This document shows, piece after piece, positions 36,457-48,585 of a DNA stretch of 64,000 bases. The notes beneath the pieces are model-generated. The model searched no databases. It was not told the DNA's origin and worked only from the letters and a program-made list of their open reading frames with translations. How positions within the stretch are numbered: the first letter of the stretch is position 1; every line of letters starts with the position of its first letter. Source of the stretch: Hydrogenobacter sp. T-2 (GTDB taxonomy: Bacteria > Aquificota > Aquificia > Aquificales > Aquificaceae); NCBI RefSeq assembly GCF_033971325.1, contig NZ_CP117180.1:1608472-1672471 (forward strand). The letters run 5' to 3'. Both the position numbers and the translations under genes were made by a program.

Positions 36457-36484
36457 TTGACAAAGAGAAAAATTTTCGTATAAT
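36457..36484 (+). promoter_or_regulatory. Consensus sigma-70 promoter
   Basis: TTGACA at 36457-36462 and TATAAT at 36479-36484, 16 bases apart: both hexamers perfect. Start of transcription is expected near 36491. Confidence 0.85.
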
Positions 36485-36490
36485 AATACC

Positions 36491-36579
36491 TATACAGATA
36501 AAGAAGTTAGGGGAAGTTAGAAACTCCCTCCCCCTCCCTCCCCTAATTGTTTTGCCCCACCGCCCGGTGGGGCCTTTCT
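36491..36579 (+). ncRNA. Candidate small RNA or attenuator leader with C-rich loop
   Basis: Downstream of a perfect promoter lies about 90 bases without an ORF. Hairpin 1 pairs TTAGGGGA (36507-36514) with TCCCCTAA (36539-36546) and exposes a 24-base loop rich in CUCCC and CCUCC, words complementary to Shine-Dalgarno sequences. Hairpin 2 is a strong GC stem, followed by CTTTCT. Either this is a stand-alone sRNA or the regulated leader of sfsA; most other transcripts in the window look leaderless, so a 90-base leader stands out. No known riboswitch motif recognised. Confidence 0.55.
36554..36579 (+). terminator. Rho-independent-like terminator before sfsA
   Basis: GCCCCACCG (36554-36562) pairs with CGGTGGGGC (36565-36573), a perfect 9-bp match, followed by CTTTCT. 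The U tract is short, so termination may be partial. The 3' arm holds GGTGGGG, the only possible weak SD for sfsA. Confidence 0.6.
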
Positions 36580-36584
36580 AAAAA

Positions 36585-37229
36585 ATGAGGTTTCCGGAGC
36601 TTAAGAAAGCAAAGTTTATAAAAAGGCTTAACAGGTTTGTGGGTCTTGTGTCTCTTGAAGATAAGGTCCACAGTGCCTATATAAGAAACACGGGAAGACT
36701 AAGGGAGCTTTTGTCAGAAGGCAACGAGGTTTACGTGGCAAAGAGAGAAAGTGGAAAACATCCCTTTGAGATAGTGCTCGCAAGGATGGGTCAAAACCTT
36801 GTATGCATAGATTCTCATATAACTCCCAAGCTGTATGCGGAGTATGTGAACCTGCCCTTGTCCTTTGAGCCTCGCTTTGACAACAAGAGGTTTGACCTTT
36901 TGGTGGAAGGAAGACCCGTTGAGGTAAAGTCGGTAAACCTTGTAGAGGGAGAAACCGCACTTTTCCCAGATGCTCCCACGAAAAGAGGAAAAGAGCACAT
37001 AGAAAAGCTCATAGAACTATCAAAGGAAGGCTACAAGCCACTCGTGGTCTTTGTAGTCCAAAGAGAAGATGCAAGAGTATTCTCCCCAAACTGGAGGGTG
37101 GACCCAGAATTTTCTAAAGCACTACTGGACTACTTTCAACTTGGACTTGAAATAAGAGCCTACAAGTGCACAGTAAGCCTTGAAGAGATTAAATTAAAAG
37201 AGGAGATACCCGTGGAGGTTTTGCCATGA
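36585..37229 (+). CDS. sfsA: Sugar fermentation stimulation protein homologue SfsA
   Basis: A 214-aa SfsA-family protein (N-terminal OB-like part, C-terminal nuclease-like fold): HSAYIRNTGRLRELL, RFDLLVEGRPVEVKSVNLVE (ExK-like), and ALFPDAPTKRGKEHIEKL. Its role is unclear: DNA binding and a nuclease fold have been suggested. It begins 6 bases after the hairpin, has no good SD, and overlaps pncA by four bases. Confidence 0.9.
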   Translation: MRFPELKKAKFIKRLNRFVGLVSLEDKVHSAYIRNTGRLRELLSEGNEVYVAKRESGKHPFEIVLARMGQNLVCIDSHITPKLYAEYVNLPLSFEPRFDNKRFDLLVEGRPVEVKSVNLVEGETALFPDAPTKRGKEHIEKLIELSKEGYKPLVVFVVQREDARVFSPNWRVDPEFSKALLDYFQLGLEIRAYKCTVSLEEIKLKEEIPVEVLP

Positions 37230-47403: not shown

Positions 47404-48471
47404 TTGAGCATCCTTGTGGAGCTTGCCAGTAGGGCAAGGGAATTGGGTGGTGTTAGGGTTTACAAAAAGAACATAGAGCGTGTGCTTTCCGCACTTCTCA
47501 AAAGTGGAGACTTTTGGGAAATAGTGGATATGTCCGACCTGCCTGTGCCTGCAGCCTCTGGCATAATAAAGACCTTGGTGGAAAAGGGTATAGCCTTTAT
47601 AGATGACGAGGAAAACATAAGGCTCACTCAAAAGGGTTTTGACTTGGTGAGAGACCTTGGCATAGAGCCATATGTGGAATATGTGTGCCAAGCCTGTGAG
47701 GGCAGAGGCATTCCCTTTTATGTGGACATAGAGTTTTATAGAGAGTTTCTTCAAATTACAAAGGACAGACCCAATGCCATAAGGGACTACGACCAAGGCT
47801 CTGTCACGCCAGAGACCACGGTGGCAAGGGTGCTCTTTATGGACTCTAGAGGCGACCTAAGAAACAAGGATATTCTTGTCTTGGGTGCAGAGGATGACCT
47901 TACTGGTCTGGCGGTAGCCCTCTCAAGGAAGGCTCGCAGTGTTCTGGTTATAGACATAGATAAGAGATTAATTGACTTTGACAACAGGATTTTCAAAGAG
48001 CTTGGCATAGATAATGCAGAGGCAAGGGTCTGGGACTTGAGAAACCCATTCCCTCAAGAAATATTGGGGCACTATGATGTTTTTGTCTCAGATCCACCAG
48101 AGACCTTGCCTGCCTTTAGAGCTTTTATAGGTAGAGGCATAGCAACCCTTAGAGAGGATGGTGGTGTAGGCTATTTTGGTCTAACTCTTAGAGACTCTTC
48201 TGTTTTTCGTTGGAGAGACTTCCAAGTAGCTTTGACCACAGAGTTTGGCGTAGCCATAACGGATATAGTCCAAGACTTTAACGCCTACATAACTTGGGAC
48301 TACCATGCGGAGACAAAAGCGGCAGAGGTTGCCCCAGTAAAAAGACAGCCTAAGGGAGTATGGTATAGGTCTGCGTGGTATAGAGTGGAGGCACTTCCTG
48401 GCTTCAAAAGGTGGAACGAGCCCATATCTGATGATGTCTTTTATCTTGATGAAGAGGGTTCAACCACTTGA
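47404..48471 (+). CDS. bpsA: N4-bis(aminopropyl)spermidine synthase
   Basis: Adds aminopropyl groups to spermidine to make branched-chain polyamines used by thermophiles to stabilise nucleic acids. The 355-aa protein (old DUF43) has a winged-helix N-terminus, a CQAC pair, DQGSVTPETTVARVL, and the Rossmann part ILVLGAEDDLTGLAVAL, with the substrate segment SDPPETLPAF replacing the usual DP(P/x)E of aminopropyltransferases. Start is TTG with GGAGG nine bases before. A strong thermophile marker. Confidence 0.9.
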   Translation: MSILVELASRARELGGVRVYKKNIERVLSALLKSGDFWEIVDMSDLPVPAASGIIKTLVEKGIAFIDDEENIRLTQKGFDLVRDLGIEPYVEYVCQACEGRGIPFYVDIEFYREFLQITKDRPNAIRDYDQGSVTPETTVARVLFMDSRGDLRNKDILVLGAEDDLTGLAVALSRKARSVLVIDIDKRLIDFDNRIFKELGIDNAEARVWDLRNPFPQEILGHYDVFVSDPPETLPAFRAFIGRGIATLREDGGVGYFGLTLRDSSVFRWRDFQVALTTEFGVAITDIVQDFNAYITWDYHAETKAAEVAPVKRQPKGVWYRSAWYRVEALPGFKRWNEPISDDVFYLDEEGSTT

Positions 48472-48496
48472 CATGAAAGGGATGCTTTGCTATAAT
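48468..48496 (+). promoter_or_regulatory. Consensus promoter of tRNA-Glu
   Basis: TTGACA at 48468-48473 and TATAAT at 48491-48496, 17 bases apart, both perfect; start expected near 48503, seven bases before the tRNA. The -35 overlaps the bpsA stop. Confidence 0.85.

Positions 48497-48509: not shown

Positions 48510-48585
<76 letters not shown>

Follow-up and report, generated by a model that had tools for sequence, protein, structure and literature searches.

In Firmicutes, the C-rich-seed small RNAs (sRNAs) LhrC, RoxS/RsaE, and FsrA have unpaired C/U-rich seeds that cover Shine-Dalgarno (SD) regions. In Sinorhizobium, the anti-SD seeds of NfeR1, which belongs to alpha-r14, silence ntrB via the translation start region (PMC10746234). 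Small RNAs with anti-SD-like seeds, the general kind of molecule discussed here, are already known. For Aquifex aeolicus, Lechner et al. (2014) list the ncRNA candidates n68 (989704-989840, plus strand; earlier Aae-65) and n75 (1168974-1169071, minus strand), the latter also detected on Northern blots in both polarities (PMC4227106). Each is an orphan candidate in its own right in that list, the counts of species that share them are low (4/2 and 3/3), and the main text assigns them no family, motif, or function and draws no relation between them (PMC4227106). The locus considered here lies in a 64,000-nucleotide stretch of the genome of Hydrogenobacter sp. T-2 (the window), in which positions are counted from the first letter.

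A free-standing small-RNA gene ahead of sfsA

A first-pass annotation of the window had pointed to a TTGACA-16-TATAAT promoter and, just ahead of sfsA, a GC terminator, and both are present. The sigma-70 promoter (36457-36484, plus strand) is a 12/12 match, with the -35 box TTGACA at 36457-36462, the -10 box TATAAT at 36479-36484, and a spacer of 16 nt. It had been called the best promoter of the window, a rank that it shares, as exactly two 12/12 sigma-70 promoters occur in the window and the other (48468-48496) lies ahead of a tRNA at 48510. The predicted sRNA is ~90 nt long (36492-36581, plus strand); its start, 8 nt past the -10 box, was placed by analogy with the mapped 5' boundary of n68 (PMC4227106).

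Within the predicted RNA, all on the plus strand, the 5' arm GUUAGGGG (36506-36513) forms a helix with CCCCUAAU (36540-36547) that leaves ~26 nt between the arms and is found only in the window's genus. The CU-only tract CUCCCUCCCCCUCCCUCCCC (36524-36543), a putative anti-SD pairing region that is near-invariant among homologues, leads into the U-rich linker UAAUUGUUUU (36544-36553), a possible Hfq contact, and then into the terminator hairpin GCCCCACC-GCCC-GGUGGGGC with its tail CUUUCUAA (36554-36581). The stem-loop itself occupies 36554-36573 with a 4-nt loop, and the U tract of the tail, CTTTCTAA, is weak. The minimum free energy fold of 36490-36584 has a value of -30.5 kcal/mol (z = -2.77), and 1 of 200 shuffled sequences was equally stable. 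The downstream neighbor sfsA (36585-37229, plus strand; Pfam SfsA, 1.3e-36) is outside the RNA, its ATG falling 11 nt past the terminator stem and ~5 nt past the last T of the tail.

Because it has its own promoter, its own terminator, and neighbors that change between lineages, the interval 36457-36581 is confirmed as a free-standing small-RNA gene. The annotation's sRNA reading is strongly supported by these elements, by conservation that is independent of the neighboring genes, and by the published A. aeolicus transcripts. Its remark that most other genes here are leaderless did not hold up: by a permissive count, 46 of the 70 open reading frames have an SD-like match of at least 4 nt near a candidate start.

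The two copies in A. aeolicus VF5 (989729-989816, plus strand, and 1168991-1169079, minus strand) overlap n68 and n75, respectively, on the same strand, in a coordinate frame that was verified by the presence of tmRNA and SRP RNA at the positions given by Lechner et al. The 5' boundary of n68 lies 8 nt past the last base of a TATAAT (989696), and this distance from the -10 box fits a true start site. Two orphan transcripts thereby become one family. The second Aquifex paralogue (n75 type, GCCCCUCCCUCCCCCCACCUCCCUCCACC; loci L136-L140) always lies with thrS on one side and a metallophosphatase-like gene on the other, and its tract is different from the main tract and is itself conserved.

Distribution and conservation in Aquificota

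A BLAST search with 145 bases gave matches in most members of Aquificaceae, the family of the window. The annotation had proposed a covariance search in relatives, and this search recovered the family with its terminator structure conserved. Model R1 matches 55 of 64 Aquificaceae genomes (E <= 2.4e-5), including all single-contig genomes searched; the nine genomes without a clear match are draft assemblies. R1 matches Hydrogenothermaceae too, in at least 24 genomes and with E down to 9e-14. Family f5, presumably Desulfurobacteriaceae, has the RNA in ~19 of 22 genomes, as found with model R2 and inspection by eye. R2 was trained on Aquificaceae and Hydrogenothermaceae alone, so that f5 is outside its training set; its probable chance matches begin at about E = 1e-6 to 1e-5, and only sequences inspected by eye were counted. 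The main f5 form, seen by eye in 16 genomes, has TTGACA, TATTAT within a palindrome, ACACCCCCUAUCCCCCUCCCUCCUCCCC, and a GC hairpin; a second, tRNA-adjacent form was seen in four genomes.

When 84,980 species genomes were scanned for the exact motif, all matches fell in Aquificota, and a search of viral contigs gave none. One matching contig (L063, RFFP01000015.1) is titled "Acidobacteria bacterium J001" and carries the Aquificaceae sRNA together with sfsA; it is probably mislabelled. Matches in families f2 and f4 and at L121, L123, L129, L131-L134, and L273 were judged to be due to chance. None of the Rfam 15 covariance models gave a gathering-level match at the window site, and for five homologue loci nothing was returned up to E = 1. 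As judged from the genomes, the family is conserved across Aquificota, apparently as one sRNA family through most of the phylum. Within the sources searched, nothing earlier appears to describe the family or its spread in Aquificota, the use of one long CU tract, or a relation of n68 to n75.

The promoter, the tract, and the terminator are the parts that are kept. TTGACA is present in 41 of the 43 Aquificaceae homologues having upstream sequence, and the best promoter score is at least 9/12 in all of them; in the homologues, the promoter also keeps a matching spacing to the RNA. Across three families, the core of the tract, CCCUCCCU, hardly varies. Alignment A1 includes rows that the exact-motif scan supplied and whose tract is invariant by selection, which does not apply to the other rows; in loci found by similarity, the tract is nearly letter-perfect save for added UCCC units and one 1-nt deletion. 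The linker is U-rich in all Aquificaceae homologues. The terminator keeps eight of eight pairs in 42/42 Aquificaceae sequences, with five of the eight changed on both sides, and its covariation of 0.463 exceeds that of shuffled (0.099) and slid controls (0.078 at most). In the joint alignment, seven of the eight stem pairs change on both sides and 100% are paired, although this alignment was fitted to the structure and is therefore biased toward pairing. With promoter, tract, and covarying terminator kept in dozens of species, the signal is beyond chance.

The hairpin with a C-rich loop that the annotation had described does fold in the window genome, but its stem is not conserved: across the family, 50.7% of cells in the helix enclosing the tract are paired. 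In many other genera, a GGGAG word pairs with the first CUCCC, and in Aquifex a longer hairpin is found at this position. A conserved alternative helix was sought in the family alignment, and none was found. The 5' stem was thus ruled out as a conserved structure; it is lineage-specific, and the constant feature is an accessible CU tract. In Hydrogenothermaceae, the -10 box mostly ends 4-8 nt ahead of the tract, and transcription is expected to begin with the tract itself, giving an RNA of ~53-59 nt made up of the CU tract, the linker, and a terminator with a T run. Because this RNA would begin at the tract, the tract and not the 5' stem is likely to be the working part. In some Hydrogenothermaceae, AUCACCUCC was considered as a possible mimic of the 16S tail.

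Several other promoters and copies were observed. A Hydrogenothermaceae paralogue (L120, L124, L247, L249, and L251; GCAUCCCCCUCCCUCCCCCUCC) has no TTGACA and instead carries the palindrome ATGATN4ATCAT upstream of a -10-like box, at approximately the position of a class II FNR/CRP-type activator, in three genera and at two different loci. In the f5 promoters (L252-L270), the -10 box lies within the conserved near-palindrome AACTATTATTAATAG, possibly an operator; as a regulon marker this palindrome was rejected, as its other matches in the genomes lie away from promoters. A C-rich RNA variant occurs at L125, L128, L262, and L274 (genomes G133, G128, G134, and G135), and at the first three of these loci it sits directly behind an apparent tRNA 3' end and is perhaps a tRNA-linked sRNA. 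A counterpart of the sRNA promoter, with 86% identity over 36 nt (L002, G000:C1:1388147-1388182), precedes a rubrerythrin-like gene and recurs across the genus (L277, L278, L281-L284, L286, L287, and L289), so that shared regulation is possible. A shared operator was considered for this promoter and rejected: the similarity is in the -35 box, spacer, and -10 box, and no operator was established.

Proposed function and alternative explanations

We consider it probable that the RNA is a trans-encoded regulatory sRNA, whose CU tract pairs with the G-rich SD regions of putative target mRNAs. RNA polymerase would start ~8 nt past the strong sigma-70 promoter, and transcription would stop at the GC hairpin to give an RNA of ~90 nt, or of ~53-59 nt in Hydrogenothermaceae. 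The CU-only tract, left exposed, would then pair with G-rich mRNA, most likely with the GGAGGG or GGGAGG form of the SD sequence, and in a limited set of mRNAs this pairing would block ribosome binding, perhaps with the assistance of Hfq bound to the tail and to the U-rich linker. Base pairing, repression, Hfq dependence, and targets are all what we infer here; translational repression by SD pairing is the best-supported guess given the complementarity of the tract, the precedent of NfeR1, and the presence of Hfq. GGAGG is the SD motif of Aquificales (Lechner et al., PMC4227106). Hfq is encoded in all eight genomes tested, and the A. aeolicus protein has been crystallized with U-rich RNA (PMC5379935). 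In each of these eight Aquificota genomes, two genes pass the Pfam cutoff for the Hfq domain, for example at G000:C1:1586146-1586334 and 792565-792741.

The annotation's suggestion that the CU words cover SD sites fits the complementarity but finds no echo in a count of sites: in four genomes, GGGAGGG-N3-10-ATG is not enriched, with 95 places compared with 118 for the reversed pattern. Long sites (GGGRGGGRGG) are few in the seven genomes searched and mostly lie inside or antisense to coding sequence, and no gene with such a site recurs across genera; neither do ten-nt complementary sites. The mRNA of one A. aeolicus gene is a weak candidate target. It carries GGGAGGGAGG 7 nt ahead of the AUG, for which the SD duplex is -23.4 kcal/mol. 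GGAGGG or GGGAGG is present in 7 of 10 of its orthologues compared with ~2 of 70 window genes, a contrast to be read with the facts that the gene was picked post hoc for its extreme A. aeolicus site and that the orthologues are related to each other. From its sequence, the gene reads as cyclopropane-fatty-acid-synthase-like (cfa-like), the sole Pfam-type match, made with an approximate query, being DUF7884 at the N terminus.

A long, low-complexity tract that is near-invariant while the SD word is not enriched could also be explained if the tract titrated a pyrimidine-binding protein and did not pair with mRNA at all. Rho and ribosomal protein S1 bind pyrimidines and, along with Hfq, would be examples of such a protein, and the tolerance of extra UCCC units is in keeping with titration. 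Genomes usually hold one copy of the gene, however, and this lack of a copy-number excess is one reason that we find a protein-binding decoy unlikely.

The annotation had also offered an attenuator of sfsA-pncA, in which the hairpin would act in cis as a leader. In its favor, sfsA begins right past the terminator in the window's genus and several related genera, and in the window's genus it has no other visible promoter. As a general explanation it fails, since sfsA is downstream only in some genera of Aquificaceae. Genes other than sfsA are found there in genomes of Aquifex, Hydrogenothermaceae, f5, g6, and the Hydrogenobaculum-like group. The downstream gene in Hydrogenothermaceae encodes a rhomboid protease, at a locus behind cbb3 oxidase genes, and that of the second Aquifex copy is the metallophosphatase-like gene. 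In g11, an ABC-transporter ATPase is downstream, and in g6 the neighbor is a convergent thymidylate kinase. Except where Pfam was used, as for SfsA, these names were read from the sequences. Because the neighbors differ between lineages, the RNA cannot be a conserved leader of sfsA, and the convergent gene in g6 and the lack of a conserved alternative helix also leave a cis-acting role very unlikely. Regardless, read-through from the sRNA promoter into sfsA is possible in the genera that have this gene downstream and may feed sfsA, for which no other promoter is visible.

Two further explanations carry almost no weight. A DNA-level element, with the G-rich template strand forming a G-quadruplex, is extremely improbable: the tract complement fits a four-run G3 consensus in Aquificaceae and f5, but most Hydrogenothermaceae tracts do not, yet they keep promoter and terminator. 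That the locus encodes a small proline-rich peptide is harder still to believe, for although the window and some relatives have an open frame over the tract to a UAA in the tail, the tract has indels (a 1-nt deletion in L021 and 4-nt insertions in L024, L027, and L039), the window has no start codon between promoter and tract, and all codon positions are equally invariant.

Significance and comparison with known sRNAs

Aquificota, commonly assigned a deep position among bacteria, live at up to ~95 °C, and to our knowledge little is known of sRNA regulation in this phylum. A seed that stays nearly unchanged through most of the phylum provides a defined object for its study and leads one to ask how a C/U-only seed achieves specificity at high temperature. 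More tentatively, and with some doubt on our part, an ancestral Aquificota sRNA might be central to post-transcriptional regulation at temperatures reaching the hyperthermophilic range. Its generic anti-SD tract would be placed, in different copies, under different controls (sigma-70, an FNR-like TGATN4ATCA, the f5 -10 palindrome, or linkage to a tRNA) as part of a phylum-wide anti-SD network.

Among described sRNAs, those with C-rich seeds in Firmicutes differ from the Aquificota RNA in lineage and architecture. The alpha-r14 or "cuckoo" sRNAs (PMC10746234, PMC3927594) are like it in having an ultraconserved, unpaired pyrimidine anti-SD word, stems that diverge around it, and trans-encoded genes. 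They belong to a different phylum, however, and the Aquificota RNA is without an Rfam match. The arrangement of the seeds differs as well: NfeR1 has three hairpins, each with the loop CCUCCUCCC, whereas the Aquificota RNA has one tract of 16-25 nt and one conserved terminator hairpin.
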